From positions 1-64,000 of the forward strand of contig NZ_QXFM01000057.1 of assembly GCF_003584015.1 (NCBI RefSeq): a stretch of 64,000 bases of DNA, read 5' to 3'. The position numbers were made by a program, and so were the translations under genes. The notes under the pieces are model-generated. The model made no database searches and was not told the DNA's origin. It worked only from the letters and a program-made list of their open reading frames with translations. The DNA is from Aurantiacibacter xanthus. Its GTDB lineage: Bacteria > Pseudomonadota > Alphaproteobacteria > Sphingomonadales > Sphingomonadaceae. Of the stretch, positions 56,565 to 64,000 are shown piece by piece (the first letter of the stretch is position 1; every line of letters begins with the position of its first letter).

Positions 56565-57578
56565 ATGAGTGACGGCAAGCAGGTTCCGGTTCTGGTTACG
56601 GGCGGAGCAGGATATATCGGCAGCCACGCGGTCCTCGCGCTGAAGGATGCCGGCTGGCCCGTCGCCGTGATCGACAACCTGACCACCGGCTTTCGCTTCG
56701 CCGTGCCCGATGACGTGCCTTTCTATGAGGGCGATATCGAGGACCCCGCGCTGCTGGCGCGTATCTTCGCCGAGCAGGGCACCAAAGCGATCATGCATTT
56801 CGCCGGCTCGATCATCGTGCCCGAATCGGTCGAGAACCCGCTCAAGTACTATCACAACAACACCGTCAAAAGCCGCGCCCTGATCGCGGCGGCGGTGGAA
56901 GCCGGCGTGCCGCATTTCATCTTCTCCAGCACCGCGGCGACCTATGGCGTGCCCGAAAACTCGCCCGTACGCGAGGACGATGCCAAGCGCCCGATCAATC
57001 CCTACGGCTGGTCGAAGCTGATGACCGAGCAGATGCTCGCCGATGTCAGCGCGGCCCATCCGCTCAACTTCTGCGTGCTGCGCTATTTCAACGTCGCGGG
57101 CGCCGATCCGCAAACCCGCACCGGCCAGTCCACCGCGGGCGCTACGCATCTGATCAAGGTCGCCTGCGAGGCGGCACTCGGCAAACGCGACAAGGTCGGC
57201 GTGTTCGGCACCGACTACGACACGCCCGACGGCACCGGCGTGCGCGACTATATCCATGTGAGCGACCTCGCCGCCGCCCACGTTCAGGCACTCGCCGCGC
57301 TGGTGGCGGATCCCGCCCGCTCGCTGACGATGAACTGCGGCTACGGGCGCGGCTTCTCGGTGCTCGAAGTGCTTGATGCGGTGGACCGCGTGACCGGCGG
57401 CACGGTCACGCGCGAGATGGGCCCGCGCCGTGCGGGCGATCCGGCCCAGCTGGTGTCCGACCCCTCGCGCATCCGGGCCACCCTGCCCTGGGTTCCGCAG
57501 TATGACGATCTCGACACGATCATCACCCATGCCCTTGCCTGGGAGGATCGGCTCGGTCCGCATCGCCCCAATCACTGA
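56565..57578 (+). CDS. galE: UDP-glucose 4-epimerase
   Basis: A 337-residue short-chain dehydrogenase-type epimerase converting UDP-glucose and UDP-galactose. GGAGYIGSH binds NAD near residue 13. VIDNLTTG, FAGSIIVPESVENP, SSTAATYGVP and the catalytic Tyr in NPYGWSKLMTEQ follow. YFNVAGAD and the C-terminal DYIHVSDLA match. With the dehydrogenase downstream it probably feeds polysaccharide synthesis. Confidence 0.95.
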   Translation: MSDGKQVPVLVTGGAGYIGSHAVLALKDAGWPVAVIDNLTTGFRFAVPDDVPFYEGDIEDPALLARIFAEQGTKAIMHFAGSIIVPESVENPLKYYHNNTVKSRALIAAAVEAGVPHFIFSSTAATYGVPENSPVREDDAKRPINPYGWSKLMTEQMLADVSAAHPLNFCVLRYFNVAGADPQTRTGQSTAGATHLIKVACEAALGKRDKVGVFGTDYDTPDGTGVRDYIHVSDLAAAHVQALAALVADPARSLTMNCGYGRGFSVLEVLDAVDRVTGGTVTREMGPRRAGDPAQLVSDPSRIRATLPWVPQYDDLDTIITHALAWEDRLGPHRPNH

Positions 57579-57729: not shown

Positions 57730-59031
57730 ATGCGCGTGACAATGATCGGCTCGGGCTATGTCGGCCTGGTTTCCGGGGCTTGCTTTGCCGACTTCGGCCA
57801 TGACGTCACCTGCGTCGACAAGGACCAGACCAAGATCGACGCCCTCAAGCAGGGCAAGATTCCGATCTACGAGCCCGGCCTTGAGGCGCTGGTCGAGAAC
57901 AACGTGCGCGCTGGCCGCCTGACCTTCACCACCGATCTGAAGGCGGGCGTAGTCGGCGCCGATGCGGTGTTCATCGCGGTCGGCACCCCGTCGCGCCGCG
58001 GCGATGGCCATGCCGACCTCACCTATGTTCACGCCGCCGCCGAGGAAATCGCGCAGAGCCTCGAAGGCTTCACCGTGATCGTCAACAAGTCGACCGTGCC
58101 GGTGGGGACGGGCGACGAAGTGGCGCGGATCGTCAAGGAAGCCAACCCGCAAGCCGATTTCGCGGTGGTGTCGAACCCCGAGTTCCTGCGCGAAGGCGCG
58201 GCGATTGACGACTTCAAGCGCCCCGACCGCATCGTGATCGGCGGCGACGATGCGCGCGGCCTCGAAGTTATGCGCGAGATTTACCGTCCGCTTTATCTCA
58301 ACAAGTCGCCCATCGTCGAGATGAGCCGCCGCTCGGCCGAGCTGACCAAGTATGCGGGCAACGCCTTCCTCGCCACCAAGATCTCTTTCATCAACGAAAT
58401 CGCCGATCTGTGCGAAAAGGTCGGCGGCGATGTGCAGGATGTCGCGCGCGGGATCGGGCTCGACAACCGCATCGGCCCCAAGTTCCTCCATGCCGGCCCC
58501 GGCTATGGCGGCAGCTGTTTCCCCAAGGACACGCTCGCCCTGCTCAAGACCAGCCAGGACTACGACGCGCCGCAGCGCATCGTGGAGGCCGTGGTGTCGG
58601 TCAACGACAACCGCAAGCGCGCGATGGGCCGCAAGATCATCAACGCGCTGGATGGCGATGTGCGCGGCAAGACGGTCGCCCTGCTCGGCCTGACCTTCAA
58701 GCCCAACACCGACGACATGCGCGACAGCCCCTCCATCGCCATCGTGCAGACGTTGCAGGACGCCGGAGCGAAGGTGAAGGTCTACGATCCGCAGGGCGAG
58801 GAACAGGCGCGCCTGGTGTTGCAGGATGTCGAATATTGCAGCTCGCCCTACGAGGCTGTCGAGGGCGCGGATGCGCTGTCGATCGTGACCGAGTGGGACG
58901 AGTTCCGCGCGCTCGACCTGCGCCGGGTGCTGACCATGCTGAAGCAGCCGGTGCTGGTCGATCTGCGCAACATCTACGACCGCGATCAGGCCGAAAGCCT
59001 CGGCTACAAATATGTCGGGATCGGTCGCTGA
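57730..59031 (+). CDS. ugd: UDP-glucose 6-dehydrogenase
   Basis: A 433-residue enzyme oxidising UDP-glucose to UDP-glucuronate. The Rossmann motif MIGSGYVGLVSGACFADFGH, VAVGTPSR, STVPVGTGDEV, the catalytic Cys in GYGGSCFPKDT and the LTFKPNTDDMRDSPS C-terminal domain are all present. GAGG precedes the ATG. The sugar base (glucose versus mannose) is inferred from the close match to Ugd. Confidence 0.93.
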   Translation: MRVTMIGSGYVGLVSGACFADFGHDVTCVDKDQTKIDALKQGKIPIYEPGLEALVENNVRAGRLTFTTDLKAGVVGADAVFIAVGTPSRRGDGHADLTYVHAAAEEIAQSLEGFTVIVNKSTVPVGTGDEVARIVKEANPQADFAVVSNPEFLREGAAIDDFKRPDRIVIGGDDARGLEVMREIYRPLYLNKSPIVEMSRRSAELTKYAGNAFLATKISFINEIADLCEKVGGDVQDVARGIGLDNRIGPKFLHAGPGYGGSCFPKDTLALLKTSQDYDAPQRIVEAVVSVNDNRKRAMGRKIINALDGDVRGKTVALLGLTFKPNTDDMRDSPSIAIVQTLQDAGAKVKVYDPQGEEQARLVLQDVEYCSSPYEAVEGADALSIVTEWDEFRALDLRRVLTMLKQPVLVDLRNIYDRDQAESLGYKYVGIGR

Positions 59032-59124: not shown

Positions 59125-60198
59125 TTACGAGATCTCTTCGTAATGGCGGCGCATGTCGCCGAGCCGGGCCTGGCCGAACTCCCGCGCAAACCGTAGCGGC
59201 CGTGCAACAGCCCCGTCGGTCCACTGCCATAACAGGCCCGAACGCCGCCAGCGGCGCTCCTGATCGCCCTGCGCATGGAGCAAGGCGGCCATCCAGCGCG
59301 ATTCGGCAGCGGTGGTGGGGGCATCCTCACTATCGCCATCGCGCAACCGGAACGCCGCCGCGGCCAGATCGGTGGCAAAGGTCCACAGGCGCAACACCCC
59401 GATCTCGCGCGCATAGTCGTCGTAGGCCGCGCGCTGAGCCGCTTCGAGCGCGGAGGTGACGACGAACAGCTCGTGCGCGTAGTGCAGCCACACCTCATCG
59501 TTTCTTATCGCCTTGCCGAGGCTGCTGGCGGTGAGCATCGCTGCATCCATGTCGCTCATCACCGGGACCTCGCGCCCGCCGACCCCGGCGATCCGGGCCG
59601 CCGCGATAATCCGCGCGATGTCGGTCGGCGCGGGCGTTCCGGGTTGCCGGACCTTGTGATGGAGATCGACGGTGGTTCCGCCGTTGACCGGCAGATGCGG
59701 CGATTCGCCGAGATAGTCGTGCCACCACTTGCTGGTCGCAGGAATCGGCGAATGGAATCCGTTGGCCGCCAGCACATCGATGGCCGAGCGGTAATCCGCG
59801 CTGGTCACCAGAATATCGGTATCCTGCGCAGGCCGGGCGTCATAGCTGCCATAAATGGCGTGCGCCCGCAGCACGCCCTTCATCGAGATGGCCCTGATCC
59901 CGTGGGTCCGCAGGATGCTGCACACCGTGGCCGTAACCCCGAGGTTGGCCATGTTCCGGAACAGACAGGCCTCGCGTCTGGCCTTCACCTCGGCCAGGCG
60001 ATTCGCTGGTATAACGATTCGCGCCCGGTTCAGTCCTTCGGCAACGAGCAGCAGGCACTTGTTCTCGCTGGCCAGGTCAAGCACCGCAGACCAGTCGGTT
60101 GCGCGATGCCGCCAAGGCGCATCCTCGCCCGGATAGACCCATTGGCGCAGTGCCCCCAACAAGGGCTCCAGAATCATTTTTGAGGCATTATCAGTCAT
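59125..60198 (-). CDS. Nucleotidyltransferase family protein (NTP_transf_5 type) of lasso cluster
   Basis: A 357-residue protein of the uncharacterised nucleotidyltransferase group (PF14907-like). Residues SMKGVLRAHAIYG and then RPAQDTDILV give the K-G...(R)x3-D-x-D nucleotidyltransferase signature (K107, D126, D128). A Rossmann-less C-terminal helical part follows. Such genes often accompany lasso kinases, where they are thought to modify the phosphorylated peptide further, but their reaction is unproved to my knowledge. ATG 60198 has GGTGGA upstream; GTG at 60210 is the alternative. It is divergent from the precursor. Confidence 0.78.
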   Translation of the reverse strand: MTDNASKMILEPLLGALRQWVYPGEDAPWRHRATDWSAVLDLASENKCLLLVAEGLNRARIVIPANRLAEVKARREACLFRNMANLGVTATVCSILRTHGIRAISMKGVLRAHAIYGSYDARPAQDTDILVTSADYRSAIDVLAANGFHSPIPATSKWWHDYLGESPHLPVNGGTTVDLHHKVRQPGTPAPTDIARIIAAARIAGVGGREVPVMSDMDAAMLTASSLGKAIRNDEVWLHYAHELFVVTSALEAAQRAAYDDYAREIGVLRLWTFATDLAAAAFRLRDGDSEDAPTTAAESRWMAALLHAQGDQERRWRRSGLLWQWTDGAVARPLRFAREFGQARLGDMRRHYEEIS

Positions 60199-60469
60199 TT
60201 GATCCACCACGCCTTGCTGCTTCCAAAGCTTTACCGCCTCGGAGACAAGACGAATATGGCCTCCTGATAACGAACATCAATTGTGACAGGACTGTCCCAT
60301 TTTAGCACCCACTGCTGCACCGCACCACAATATGGTTGCTAAGACGTTAACTCTATGTGATCGGACTCATCAGACGAGCCTGGCAATCAGCATTCAGTGC
60401 CGGGCACTCGCTGGGGTCGCACCCATGTGATGCAAACAAACACCTGTTTAACAACGTAAATGGAGGCAA
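60199..60469. promoter_or_regulatory. Divergent promoter region of the lasso cluster
   Basis: A 271-bp gap between the nucleotidyltransferase start and the precursor start. It is more AT-rich than its neighbours, as expected for two promoters. TGTTTAACA (60445-60453) is a near-palindrome just before the precursor. No clear -35/-10 pair or known operator was found. Confidence 0.5.
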
Positions 60470-60472
60470 ATG

Positions 60473-60613
60473 ATGGCCAAGAAGACCTACGAAGCTCCGA
60501 AGTTCGAAAAGCTGGGTTCGTTCGAAGCGATGACCAAGGGTTCGTCGGACGGCAACTTCACCGACGCCGTGTTCCCGAGCGACACGCCGAGGGGCGAGCT
60601 GACCTTCTCGTAA
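60473..60613 (+). CDS. Lasso peptide precursor (A)
   Basis: A 46-residue precursor (47 from the in-frame ATG at 60470); GGAGG lies 6 nt before 60473. The leader carries YEAPKFEKLGSFEAMTK, matching the lasso leader pattern Y-x2-P-x-[LF]-x3-G-x5-T-x, in which the B1-binding Tyr and Pro and the penultimate Thr are conserved. The core is 24 residues. It starts with Gly1, has Asp9 as ring acceptor (GSSDGNFTD, a nine-residue macrolactam), and ends G-E-L-T-F-S with Ser24 last. Bulky Phe12 and Arg18 in the tail are possible plugs. It is missed by simple long-frame searches. Function of the product is unknown. Confidence 0.9.
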   Translation: MAKKTYEAPKFEKLGSFEAMTKGSSDGNFTDAVFPSDTPRGELTFS

Positions 60614-60630
60614 GGTTCGGCAATCAAGAG

Positions 60631-60659
60631 AAACGGCCGCTTCGGCGGCCGTTTTTTTT
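60631..60659 (+). terminator. Strong intrinsic terminator after the precursor
   Basis: AACGGCCGC, TTCG loop, GCGGCCGTT, then a run of eight T. The UUCG loop adds stability. It lies between the precursor and B1, and should let precursor mRNA greatly exceed that of the processing enzymes, with partial read-through. Confidence 0.85.
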
Positions 60660-60722
60660 GGCAGGTTCCGACAGGCGGCGGGCTCTTGTGCCCTTGCTGC
60701 GTTCGAGATAGAGCTCAAGTGG

Positions 60723-61010
60723 ATGAATTCAGGGGATTCAAGCGCTATGTATCGTCGCTGCGAGGATCTTGTGGTGTGCGATCTGGATGGCGGAAGCGCA
60801 TTGCTCGATCTCAATACGAGCACCTATTTCAAGCTCAACGGCACCGCCAGTTTCATCTGGGAAAAGCTCGGCGATCAGCCGATGGATGCCGATATGCTCG
60901 CCGAAGAGCTGATCAAGGTCTATGATGTCGAGAAGGCCGTGTGCCTGCCCGACATCCAGTACGTTCTCAACGAACTCGCAACGGCGAATCTGATCACGGA
61001 TCAACCCTAG
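60723..61010 (+). CDS. Lasso leader-binding protein B1 (PqqD-like RRE)
   Basis: A 95-residue PqqD-like RiPP recognition element, which binds the precursor leader and hands it to B2. The fold is seen in DLVVCDLDGGSALLDLNTSTYFKLNGTASFIWE (in part), then the helical part with IQYVLNELATANLI. Start is ATG 60723; ATG at 60747 (MYRRCEDL, 87 residues, AGGGG about 11 nt upstream) is equally likely. Its stop abuts the B2 start. Confidence 0.88.
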   Translation: MNSGDSSAMYRRCEDLVVCDLDGGSALLDLNTSTYFKLNGTASFIWEKLGDQPMDADMLAEELIKVYDVEKAVCLPDIQYVLNELATANLITDQP

Positions 61011-61433
61011 ATGAATGTGCGGCGCGCTTTCGTCCTCGGCTCCAGACATTTCGCACTGCTTTGCAAGACTCTGGCCGTAGTGGTCACGATGCGTCTGGCT
61101 CTGCTGGTGACGAAGCATCGGCACATTGCCCAGCACATCACGGTTAAGCCCGCCCCTTCCGGTTACGTGCGCGAGGCTTCCACGCTGGCCTGGGCGGTTC
61201 GGAACACCGCCCGCATCGTTCCCTTCGCCCATTGCCTGACGCAGGCGCTCAGCCTGCAATACCTGCTCGGCCAGCAGGGCATGACCTCGACCATCCGGGT
61301 CGGCGTGCAGATGGCCCGCAACGGCACCCTCGATTCGCATGCCTGGCTGATTCATGACGGCACCGTCTTGTTGGGGGGCAGCGAGAACGAACTTGCCGCT
61401 TTCACCAAGATGGTCGACCTGACCCCGTCCTGA
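61011..61433 (+). CDS. Lasso leader peptidase B2 (transglutaminase-like)
   Basis: A 140-residue cysteine protease of the Transglut_core3 type that cuts the leader from the core. The catalytic triad is readable: Cys74 in FAHCLTQAL, His110 in DSHAWLIHDG, and Asp116. The N-terminal part is hydrophobic and helical. It follows B1 directly and ends 1 bp before the cyclase start, giving a tightly coupled B1-B2-C order. Confidence 0.88.
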   Translation: MNVRRAFVLGSRHFALLCKTLAVVVTMRLALLVTKHRHIAQHITVKPAPSGYVREASTLAWAVRNTARIVPFAHCLTQALSLQYLLGQQGMTSTIRVGVQMARNGTLDSHAWLIHDGTVLLGGSENELAAFTKMVDLTPS

Positions 61434-61434
61434 G

Positions 61435-63276
61435 ATGGCTGGCTTCGCCCTGGCCTGGTCGCGCTCGCAAGGGGCGCTGTCCTTTGCGCGGCTGACCTCT
61501 GCCGCACCCGCCTCCACTGCCACGACCATCGACGACACCGTCTTCGCCGCCGCCGACCGCGCGCGTGGGCTGGAACTGGCCGGCATCTGGCGCGCCGACA
61601 ACGGCGCCGACCTCATTCGCGAGCTGGGACTGCCGACCGCGTCGCGCCCGCAGGATATCCTCGCCGCCGGATGGAGCAAATGGTCAACCGGCCTGGCCGA
61701 CCGCCTGCGCGGCCCCTTCGCCATTGCCATCCTCCAGCGCGATACCAACTCGCTTTACCTCGCGCGCGATTTCATGGGCGTCGAGCCGCTGTTTTACACG
61801 CGCACCGCCGATGGGCTGGCGCTGTCGTCCTCGCCGGTCGCGGCCCGCTCGCTCGCCGATGCGCCCGGCGCTGTCCGTCTTGCCGCCGTTTCGAGCTTTC
61901 TCGCTGGTTTCCCCGCCGACAAGACCGGCACCTACTACGATAACATCGCCAGGCTGGCCCCCGGACACTGGATGACGATTTCGCCCGCGGGCGAACGGAC
62001 CGAGCCGTACTGGACGGTGCAGGCCATCGCGAGTCGCCCGGCGCCAGCCGATGCCGGCGAGCGCTTCCGCGCCCTGCTCGACCGCTCGGTGGCCAACAGC
62101 GCCAGCGATGCGGAGCCGATCGGAGTGCTGCTGAGCGGCGGGCTCGATTCCTCGGCCATTTCCGGGGCGCTCATGCATGGACGCACAGGCGGCCCTGCCG
62201 TCCAGTCGCTGTCGCTGACCTATCCCGGCAACGAGGGCTGGGCCGACGGGAAGTATATCGAAGCGCTGCGCGCCTATTTCCCGATGGAACACCACAGCCT
62301 GCCGAGCAACGAACACGATCCGCTCGCCAATCTGGAGAGCTACTTTCCCGTCCTCGACGGACCGAGCTTCGGCTATGGCCTGTCGGTCTCCAACCGGCTG
62401 CTGCCGATGGCAGCAGAGCTGGGCTGCCGCTCGCTGTTCCACGGCCACGGCGGCGACGAGGTCGTCAGCTATGGCACCGGCAGGCTGAATGAACTGGCGA
62501 TGCAGGGGCAGTGGCGGCAATTGTGGGCCGAGGCCGAAGGCGCGGCCCAGCTCTGGTCGATGCCGCGCTGGCGCGTGTTGGACAGATACCTGTTTCACAA
62601 GCCGCAGCGACGCTGGCTCGATCGGCAGTGGAAGCGCCTGCACCGGCGCGCGCAAGCCGATTCGGCGGCGGAGCTGGAAGTCCAGAGCGAGGCCCTGCTC
62701 GCCCATCGCCCCGCACACAGCGCGCCCGTGGCACAGCTCTCGCAGGCCCGCCATACCGAGCGCGACGTGCAGGAAACCGCCATCGCTTCGCCGCTGCAAC
62801 CGCATGCATTGGAGACCTTGGTTCTGAGCGGGCGGCATCACGGGCTTCAGGTCAAGCTGCCGTTCTTCGACCGCGATCTGCTCGAATTCTCGGTCAGCCT
62901 GCCCTCGGACTGGAAGCTGCGCGACGGCTACACCCGTTATGTGCTGCGCAAGGCCATCGAAGGCCGCGTGCCCGACAGCGTCACCTGGCGCCGCGACAAG
63001 AACGACTTTACCGACGATTTCAAGATCGGCCTGATCGAACGCAGCCCGCACCTGCGCGATCTCGTATCCTCGGCAAACGGCGACTTGCAGGGCCTTGTAA
63101 ACCCGCAATGGTTTGGAAAAATCTGGTCCAAAGTAGCACACGACGGATCATCGATAACCACTTCCGATGCACGCGCGCTATGGCGCGTCGCAGTGCTGGC
63201 GATGTGGCTCGGCAGCGACCGGCGACCGCAGGCGCCGCCCAGGTTGCAGCCGATTGGAGTTGAGGGCAATGTTTGA
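61435..63276 (+). CDS. Lasso cyclase C (asparagine synthetase-like)
   Basis: A 613-residue enzyme that activates the ring-acceptor side chain as an acyl-AMP and closes the macrolactam with the Gly1 amine. The N-terminal glutaminase-like domain lacks the catalytic Cys2 (it starts MAGFALAW), which is usual for lasso C proteins. The ATP-pyrophosphatase P-loop is LLSGGLDSSA near residue 232. HGHGGDEVVSYG and VKLPFFDRDLLEFSVSLP are present as in asparagine synthetase B. Its last 8 bp overlap the kinase start. Confidence 0.93.
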   Translation: MAGFALAWSRSQGALSFARLTSAAPASTATTIDDTVFAAADRARGLELAGIWRADNGADLIRELGLPTASRPQDILAAGWSKWSTGLADRLRGPFAIAILQRDTNSLYLARDFMGVEPLFYTRTADGLALSSSPVAARSLADAPGAVRLAAVSSFLAGFPADKTGTYYDNIARLAPGHWMTISPAGERTEPYWTVQAIASRPAPADAGERFRALLDRSVANSASDAEPIGVLLSGGLDSSAISGALMHGRTGGPAVQSLSLTYPGNEGWADGKYIEALRAYFPMEHHSLPSNEHDPLANLESYFPVLDGPSFGYGLSVSNRLLPMAAELGCRSLFHGHGGDEVVSYGTGRLNELAMQGQWRQLWAEAEGAAQLWSMPRWRVLDRYLFHKPQRRWLDRQWKRLHRRAQADSAAELEVQSEALLAHRPAHSAPVAQLSQARHTERDVQETAIASPLQPHALETLVLSGRHHGLQVKLPFFDRDLLEFSVSLPSDWKLRDGYTRYVLRKAIEGRVPDSVTWRRDKNDFTDDFKIGLIERSPHLRDLVSSANGDLQGLVNPQWFGKIWSKVAHDGSSITTSDARALWRVAVLAMWLGSDRRPQAPPRLQPIGVEGNV

Positions 63277-64000
63277 GCAAAGCGGGGGGCTTTACGACGC
63301 TTTCGGGCTAACCATCGAAAGCGATATCCCCCTCAACGAACTTCGCCCCGCCGCTCCCGGCGCGGTGCCCGATATCCGTTTCGTCAACCGGCCCATCGGG
63401 CGCGACCTGCCCCGGCTCGAAGACGGCATCGTCATGGACTATGCCGATCCCGCCGGCGTGGTGATGGCGTGGCCCGACGTCGCCGCCTTCCGGCTGGTCG
63501 ACAAGGGGACGGTATGGGTCGAGAAATATCCCGACGTGCCCGAATCCTATGTCGCCTTCCCGATCCTCGGCCCGATCATGGCCTGGATGCTGAACTGGCG
63601 CGAGTTCTTCATCATCCATGCCAGCGCCATCGACATCAACGGCAAGACGGTTGCCCTGATGGGCGACAAGCTCGCCGGCAAGTCGACCACGGCGGCCGCC
63701 TTCATTCGCGCGGGCTATCCGCTCGTCACCGACGACCTGCTGGCAATCACCTTCGATGATGGCGGCACCCCGGTGTGCCATCCGGCCTTCCCCCAGCTCA
63801 AGCTGGCCGAGGACGCCGCCGCGAACATTCGCGTCGACGGGGCCGAGGCTTTGCCGCTCGTTTACGAGGGCTTTTCCAAGCGGCAGCACAAGCTGGCGGG
63901 CATGCGCACCGAAGCGGCCAGTCTCGACTATCTGGTCACGCTCGACCGCGGCGGGACCGCGCCCGGCCTGTTCCCGTTCGACACCGCCGCAGCAATCGCG
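63269..64000 (+). CDS. HPr-kinase-like lasso kinase (K), partial
   Basis: The first 244 residues of a kinase; no stop before the window edge. The HprK-like core has HASAIDINGK, P-loop GDKLAGKST (residues 132-140) and VTDDLLAI with two Asp (155-156), as in the HPr kinase family. Lasso kinases of this type phosphorylate the C-terminal Ser of the lasso precursor, and the predicted core ends in Ser. It overlaps the cyclase by 8 bp. What follows is not visible. Confidence 0.88.
   Translation, partial: MFEQSGGLYDAFGLTIESDIPLNELRPAAPGAVPDIRFVNRPIGRDLPRLEDGIVMDYADPAGVVMAWPDVAAFRLVDKGTVWVEKYPDVPESYVAFPILGPIMAWMLNWREFFIIHASAIDINGKTVALMGDKLAGKSTTAAAFIRAGYPLVTDDLLAITFDDGGTPVCHPAFPQLKLAEDAAANIRVDGAEALPLVYEGFSKRQHKLAGMRTEAASLDYLVTLDRGGTAPGLFPFDTAAAIA

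Follow-up and report, generated by a model that had tools for sequence, protein, structure and literature searches.

A probable phospho-lasso peptide cluster of Aurantiacibacter xanthus and its polysaccharide neighbourhood

Gene content of the cluster

The first 64,000 bases of contig NZ_QXFM01000057.1 (C45) of Aurantiacibacter xanthus (assembly GCF_003584015.1), here called the window, end inside a gene cluster for a lasso peptide that is accompanied by a kinase (K) and a nucleotidyltransferase (N). Taken together, the data presented below describe a phospho-lasso cluster that is intact and probably works, with a gene set already known from elsewhere and a core peptide that is uncharacterised as far as searched. 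The precursor gene A and the genes B1, B2, C and K are on the plus strand with N divergent; these calls and directions, made in a first-pass annotation of the same DNA, were confirmed as open reading frames (ORFs), and its reading of the locus as a lasso cluster with kinase and nucleotidyltransferase is borne out by protein families, motifs and homologues. The end of K and the exporter gene D were read from the contig beyond the window.

59125-60210, minus strand (divergent): N, NTP_transf_5-family nucleotidyltransferase, 361 aa (Pfam NTP_transf_5, E 5e-30)
60470-60613, plus strand: A, lasso precursor, 47 codons (46 from the second ATG, 60473), NCBIfam lasso_leader_L3
60473-60538, plus strand: leader MAKKTYEAPKFEKLGSFEAMTK with Tyr-17, Pro-14, Phe-12 and Thr-2, identical in 4/4 close homologues
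60539-60610, plus strand: core GSSDGNFTDAVFPSDTPRGELTFS, with a predicted Gly1-Asp9 ring and Ser24 as predicted phosphosite
60631-60660, plus strand: GC-rich hairpin with UUCG loop followed by a U run, terminator- or attenuator-like, in the A-B1 spacer
60723-61010, plus strand: B1, PqqD-type recognition element of ribosomally synthesised and post-translationally modified peptides (RiPP recognition element, RRE; Pfam PqqD, 6e-16)
61011-61433, plus strand: B2, transglutaminase-like leader peptidase (Transglut_core3, 3e-19; NCBIfam lasso_biosyn_B2)
61435-63276, plus strand: C, asparagine-synthetase-like macrolactam cyclase (Pfam Asn_synthase, 7e-48)
63269-64198, plus strand (window end at 64000): K, HprK-like kinase by motif and homologues, overlapping the end of C
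64195-65973 of the contig, outside the window: D, ABC exporter (ABC_membrane and ABC_tran), overlapping the end of K

Among the NCBIfam models, lasso_leader_L3 matches A with 22.5 bits (cut-off 19) and lasso_biosyn_B2 matches B2 above its cut-off; the matches of B1 to the lasso PqqD chaperone models and of C to the lasso cyclase model fall below theirs. B2 contains a Cys in FAHCLTQ and a His in DSHAWL, which we take to be its functional residues. It had also been anticipated that an exporter, isopeptidase or receptor might follow past the window end, and of these the ABC exporter does lie directly after K, while neither isopeptidase nor receptor was found among the five genes after D or the flanking upstream genes, with family annotation reaching to about position 70600 of the contig.

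Precursor, hairpin and selection

The precursor carries the RRE-binding leader motif and the Thr at -2 that mark a lasso precursor. Its core starts with a residue allowed at position 1 (Gly1) and has Asp at position 9, and therefore a nine-residue ring is predicted. The core was not recognised in the first-pass annotation, and a text search of the open-access literature and the plasmid records likewise gave no match to a characterised peptide. The hairpin between A and B1 is present in 4/4 aligned homologous spacers, and the segment 60610-60665 folds with -26.9 kcal/mol (z -5.2); a pattern scan scored the hairpin on the minus strand only. Such a structure would let A be expressed above the enzyme genes.

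Selection was assessed by comparison with the clusters of Aurantiacibacter suaedae (L060) and two Erythrobacter metagenome-assembled genomes (L061 and L062), leaving out the D gene of L061, which is cut by the contig end. These relatives also share the flanks of the cluster, as would be expected of a sphingomonad host near Aurantiacibacter/Erythrobacter. The seven genes of the window locus and the homologues compared from the three relatives are all free of internal stops, and no loss-of-function change was seen in B1, B2 or C, a finding that the first-pass annotation had named as one that would refute its reading. The ratio of nonsynonymous to synonymous substitution rates (dN/dS) is about 0.08-0.30 in the enzyme and exporter genes and about 0.2 in N. 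In the leader, zero nonsynonymous differences stand against 4 to 8 synonymous ones in 3/3 comparisons, while the core shows about 9 to 18 nonsynonymous versus 4.5 to 6.3 synonymous differences. Low dN/dS in the enzymes together with nonsynonymous changes in the core thus means that the machinery is kept while the core varies. Since four syntenic copies share an identical 22-residue leader and the ratios are this low, the arrangement is more than chance; as judged from these comparisons, the genes are under purifying selection and the cluster is intact.

The kinase and the nucleotidyltransferase

K is best described as an HprK-like kinase, an identity that is the weakest among the cluster genes and is drawn from motif and homologues. 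The 309-residue form matches no Pfam family at E 1e-5, and a sequence search of solved structures links K weakly to HPr kinase/phosphorylase (E 0.008). His117, Lys138, Asp155 and Asp156 are invariant in 13/13 aligned sequences, and with these residues K matches the His-Lys-Asp-Asp motif that has been named for lasso kinases (PMC9266682, PMC8498205, PMC10368454; these papers and PMC13381572 are cited throughout from the excerpts available). In N, K111-G112, R126 and D130-x-D132 are invariant in 12/12 aligned homologues. The solved-structure search with N returned nothing useful, and a structure predicted for N from four sequences had a mean predicted local distance difference test (pLDDT) score of 41, too low for conclusions.

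The two genes travel together. In this genome K and N are each the sole gene of their type found. A strong K match (E<1e-60) was obtained for 6 of 298 family genomes and a strong N match (E<1e-30) for 7, which include all 6 K genomes; the seventh (G157) has N next to a divergent kinase, and neither A nor B nor C was found there. A more distant full cluster (L046) carries N at a weaker score. Across loci with both precursor and K, N is present in 24/26, a count in which some loci are near-identical and Paenibacillus and Halopiger are left out. No relative of K was found in the viral contigs searched.

Phosphosite and conserved tail

Comparison of 25 distinct related cores shows a C-terminal Ser in 24/25, whereas Ser3 occurs in 8/25 and Thr3 in one more; this makes Ser24 very likely the phosphosite, as in paeninodin, the Syan peptide and pseudomycoidin and not at Ser3 as in BsfA. 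Asp9 is found in 25/25 and Thr16-Pro17 in 24/25 of the same cores, and with the Paenibacillus (L068) and Halopiger (L065) cores added the figures become 27/27 for Asp9, 25/27 for the C-terminal Ser and 24/27 for Thr16-Pro17. These counts are partly circular for precursors that were found through the precursor profile. In the 12 distinct cores from the window and the loci found through K or N, a table that leaves out L068 and L065 (both also met through K), Asp9, Thr16-Pro17 and the C-terminal Ser are each present in 12/12.

A similar tail occurs outside the Alphaproteobacteria in one Bacillota and one cyanobacterial precursor. The core of a Priestia aryabhattai precursor annotated as paeninodin family is identical to the window core at 14/24 positions and to that of L062 at 18/24, with 0/20000 shuffles scoring as high; in the same test, 162, 32 and 2 shuffles scored as high for the more distant cores of L041, L064 and L063, respectively. 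A precursor on a Nostoc plasmid (L071) is 45.7% identical over the full 46 residues (E 7e-5) and ends in TGTPRGKLTFS, and no cluster gene was found within 12 kb of it. The core of Paenibacillus cellulosilyticus keeps Asp9 and the C-terminal Ser and has no Thr-Pro...LTFS tail; the tail is therefore not general in Bacillota. In a tree of the kinases, 22 alphaproteobacterial sequences group at 98/93 with Priestia outside, and in a quick tree 19 cyclases (that of the window and 18 from alphaproteobacterial kinase-lasso clusters) group at an approximate likelihood-ratio support (SH-aLRT) of 99, again with Priestia outside. These groupings weigh against simple common descent of the shared tail. A single kinase clade that includes Priestia is not firmly rejected by the approximately unbiased test (p-AU 0.057). 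Branches leading to the Priestia rows are long and the composition of these rows is odd, and the trees leave out near-identical rows and the Paenibacillus and Halopiger kinases; they neither establish nor reject one shared origin for the kinases of Bacillota and Alphaproteobacteria.

Comparison with known systems

Intact B1, B2 and C identify a lasso cluster, and the His, Lys, Asp, Asp motif of the kinase with a C-terminal Ser in the precursor would place it with the C-terminally phosphorylated lasso peptides. In pseudomycoidin (psm) of Bacillus pseudomycoides, PsmK phosphorylates the C-terminal Ser, to which hexose is then added through PsmN (PMC9266682, PMC8498205). That system, compared by description only, shares the lasso set with K and N and differs in belonging to Bacillota as opposed to Alphaproteobacteria; the window cluster likewise has a nucleotidyltransferase gene with its motif intact. 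The bsf cluster of Bradymonas sediminis consists of A, B1, B2, C, K, D and N (PMC10368454). As pseudomycoidin and bsf already carry K and N, and bsf also D, the gene set is not new, and the suggestion that the two tailoring genes are an addition to the minimal lasso set had been anticipated by these systems. The bsf kinase acts on Ser3 of a core that ends in Asp and has a Gly1-Asp8 ring and Ile at -2 of the leader (PMC10368454), in contrast to Thr at -2, Asp9 and the terminal Ser in the window. With Thr and not Ile or Val at -2, and with Ser3 in only 8/25 cores, the cluster is not of the Bsf type.

Paeninodin and paeninodin-like clusters of Bacillota also have an HprK-like kinase acting on the C-terminal Ser and are often found at capsular polysaccharide loci (PMC9266682, PMC13381572). 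The differences lie in the leader, which has WxxP in Bacillota and YxxP here, and in the gene order, C-A-K-B1-B2-D in the paeninodin type compared to A-B1-B2-C-K-D in the window cluster. Despite the 14/24 core positions shared with Priestia, Tyr in the leader and the position of Priestia K and C outside the alphaproteobacterial clades, a separation that is weak in view of the p-AU value given above, set the cluster apart from the paeninodin family. The nearest characterised relative is likely the system of Sphingobium yanoikuyae, whose kinase SyanK is a proteobacterial lasso kinase that (poly)phosphorylates the C-terminal Ser (PMC9266682, PMC8498205). The likeness is by description only, and the excerpts of these two papers mention no N for that system. 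Finally, linear polyphosphorylated peptides (LPP) resemble the cluster in having an RRE, an HprK-like kinase, an NTP transferase, an MsbA-like exporter and a setting in capsule loci; they differ in that they have no cyclase, use a SipW-like leader peptidase and are phosphorylated on Ser3 (PMC13381572).

Proposed pathway and alternatives

We propose with good confidence that the product made and exported by the cluster is a lasso peptide with a phosphate on Ser24, its C-terminal residue; that N acts on this phosphate is somewhat favoured. B1 would bind the YxxPxF leader, K would phosphorylate Ser24 on the linear precursor, B2 would cut after Lys-1, next to Thr-2, and C would then close the ring between Gly1 and Asp9 around the tail. 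The phosphoserine would be modified by N, which would attach either a nucleotide or, as PsmN is reported to do, a hexose, and D would export the product. Calculated monoisotopic masses are 2485.103 for the unmodified lasso peptide, 2565.070 with one phosphate, 2645.036 with two phosphates, 2727.123 with one phosphate and one hexose, and 2894.122 or 2871.095 with phosphate plus AMP or UMP, respectively. The catalytic steps are modelled on characterised relatives, while the locus itself shows the presence and integrity of the genes, their motifs, purifying selection, conservation of the acceptor and the co-occurrence of K and N.

Several observations weigh against this proposal. The matches of K to Hpr_kinase_C and to HprK-related models, obtained with a longer open frame, are under the curated cut-offs. 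The core of L128 ends in ...LTFSN with an Asn after the Ser, the sole exception of the 25, and the more distant archaeal core of L065 ends in Thr. The window core offers further acceptors in Ser2, Ser3, Ser14 and Thr residues, and BsfK does use Ser3. L054 (6501-8925), which may be a remnant, has N next to a divergent kinase, and neither A nor B nor C was found in its vicinity; for two plasmid K loci (Sulfitobacter and Priestia) N was not found plasmid-wide at E 1e-5.

The alternative that survives best concerns the chemistry of N, which may be a nucleotidyltransferase in the strict sense; it would leave the phosphoserine nucleotidylated or activated, and any sugar would come from other enzymes. 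The NTP_transf_5 fold family with its invariant K-G, R and D-x-D residues would fit this, and a review notes that the nucleotide option was not excluded for PsmN, where the hexose was seen only in an E. coli host (PMC9266682, PMC8498205). Against it, one or two hexoses are the sole reported outcome for PsmN, the functional homologue, in the excerpts of the same sources, and we regard this version of N as a tentative one of appreciable but less than even weight.

Phosphorylation by K of Ser3 in the ring segment, as mapped for BsfK in a system that also has N and D (PMC10368454), is improbable: the window core does contain Ser3, but this residue is present in 8/25 cores and replaced by Thr in one more, against the C-terminal Ser in 24/25, and BsfA itself ends in Asp. 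A Bsf-like modification was set aside on this comparison. It is hardly more credible that N is part of the adjoining polysaccharide genes and plays no role for the peptide. N is divergent and the locus is flanked by such genes, but N accompanies K in 6/6 strong-K genomes and in 13/13 precursor-found clusters, whichever way it is oriented and whichever end of the cluster it occupies, which ties it to the cluster and not to a fixed flank. The least credible reading is that of a linear phosphorylated product or a cluster that no longer functions; LPP clusters do share RRE, HprK-like kinase, NTP transferase and exporter, but open C and B2 genes are retained under purifying selection, Asp9 occurs in 25/25 cores, and no SipW-like peptidase gene is among the ORFs identified in the cluster.

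Distribution of related clusters

The precursor profile at E<=0.01 matched 27/386 genomes of the order and 14/388 of the phylum, and most of the weak matches span the leader only; in the class sample (385 genomes) it matched 2 genomes, one being the window's own. Strong matches (E<1e-13) gave 14 new places, of which 13/14 carry B1, B2, C, K, D and N. The fourteenth (L119, 8904-9092) is a second precursor, without cluster genes, in genome G904, which has a full cluster elsewhere (L120). L118, L119 and L120 have 30-residue cores with Cys4 and Cys23 and a tail six residues longer, with the C-terminal Ser kept, and a disulfide between ring and tail seems possible. At L116 (8713-9138), two different tandem precursors precede one enzyme set. 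L129-L134 form another kinase-bearing group with short cores and an Asp or Glu near position 8; 5/6 leaders end in ...SVRNLTG, and B1, B2, C and K are present in 5/6.

Kinase clusters are also found on plasmids of Paracoccus, Sulfitobacter, Priestia, Paenibacillus and the archaeon Halopiger. The predicted core of the Sulfitobacter precursor (L064, 3045-3185) starts with Thr, which is unusual for a lasso peptide. The plasmid of Halopiger xanaduensis (L065, 4734-12474) carries N, a K-like gene, C, B2, B1 and an exporter, with a sulfatase and a flippase as neighbours, and its precursor has a YxxPxL leader and ends in Thr.

The A. xanthus genome itself has three more B-type (Transglut_core3) loci without kinase: L006 (contig C68, 7473-8345), L007 (C74, 7593-10131) and L008 (C87, 5841-7903). 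Short ORFs resembling lasso precursors lie nearby on C74 and C68 (...ETKGAVGFYIDASGGQLANSPGLLDE and ...ETQGDGLEPFDIGGLQRVAGIADD), and a cyclase-like gene is present on C74 and C87. The B gene of the kinase-less C74 cluster is 100% identical to that of L152 in a genome of another genus (G036), with a cyclase fragment 99.7% identical, which suggests a recent transfer.

Polysaccharide neighbourhood

The cluster is bordered on both sides by genes of polysaccharide metabolism. Behind D follow five genes, for a hexapeptide acyltransferase, a family-16 glycosyl hydrolase, an O-antigen ligase-like protein, a Wza-like polysaccharide exporter and a family-2 glycosyltransferase, and upstream of the cluster lie:

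56565-57578: sugar epimerase
57730-59031: UDP-glucose/GDP-mannose dehydrogenase

This setting recurs. With Pfam models, 7/7 kinase-lasso loci lie within 23 kb of both Poly_export and Bac_transf, as opposed to 0/41 B2 loci without a listed kinase nearby that have both genes and 2/41 that have either gene within 30 kb; for Poly_export alone, the Fisher p is 5e-7, with kinship ignored. In this control 'kinase-less' means no listed K row within 20 kb, the 37 genomes were chosen as known to have B2 and are not random, the B2 places of G174, G220 and G257 were entered as approximate positions, and 19/41 loci are on contigs without either marker and counted as negative. One of its two positive loci (G041:C1:1490798) has a divergent kinase about 4 kb away (L132), and in the same test the counts for another five B2 loci that have a divergent kinase were 4 and 1.

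A second control used BLAST within about 9 kb and found polysaccharide genes at 19/23 kinase-lasso loci versus 0/20 kinase-less ones. As for the four misses, three (L042-L044) carry the Pfam genes at a distance of 17-18 kb, and the contig of the fourth (L061) breaks off on the side concerned. Homologues of both B and C from the kinase-less clusters of this genome are present at no fewer than 17 of the 20 control loci, and at the remaining three the matches were to kinase-type B or C genes. Seeds for the BLAST search were taken from this locus and a Paracoccus plasmid, a choice that favours kinase-bearing relatives; the Pfam count is free from this bias. Related loci such as L042-L044 and L122-L127 are not independent. 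A mere base rate of polysaccharide genes was considered as an explanation, and the two controls speak against it. The link is thus seen here, with a control, in Alphaproteobacteria, while that in Bacilli has already been reported: a 2026 paper in Nature Communications (PMC13381572) describes the same neighbourhood for paeninodin-like clusters, calls the role of the peptides unknown, only speculates on biofilm and, in the excerpts available, restricts paeninodins to Bacillota. Among the matches listed in our search of the open-access literature, this was the only paper to join lasso peptide, polysaccharide biosynthesis, kinase and HprK.

Implications

A speculative reading, to which we give a rather low weight, is that the alphaproteobacterial clusters form one family of polysaccharide-associated phospho(glyco)lasso peptides. 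The tail (Thr16-Pro17 ... Leu-Thr-Phe-Ser) would then be conserved, partly even across phyla, because it has to fit a general partner such as the polysaccharide or its assembly and export machinery, and the change made by N to the phosphoserine would tie the peptide to the polysaccharide, perhaps covalently via a sugar phosphate. If this were true, the peptides would be parts or regulators of the matrix and not mainly antibiotics. With the same kit, acceptor residue and polysaccharide setting in Alphaproteobacteria, and with kinase-less lasso loci as a contrast, the biofilm idea becomes testable, and easily handled marine bacteria offer a setting for such a test. They would also provide a second lineage in which to learn what the nucleotidyltransferase attaches.

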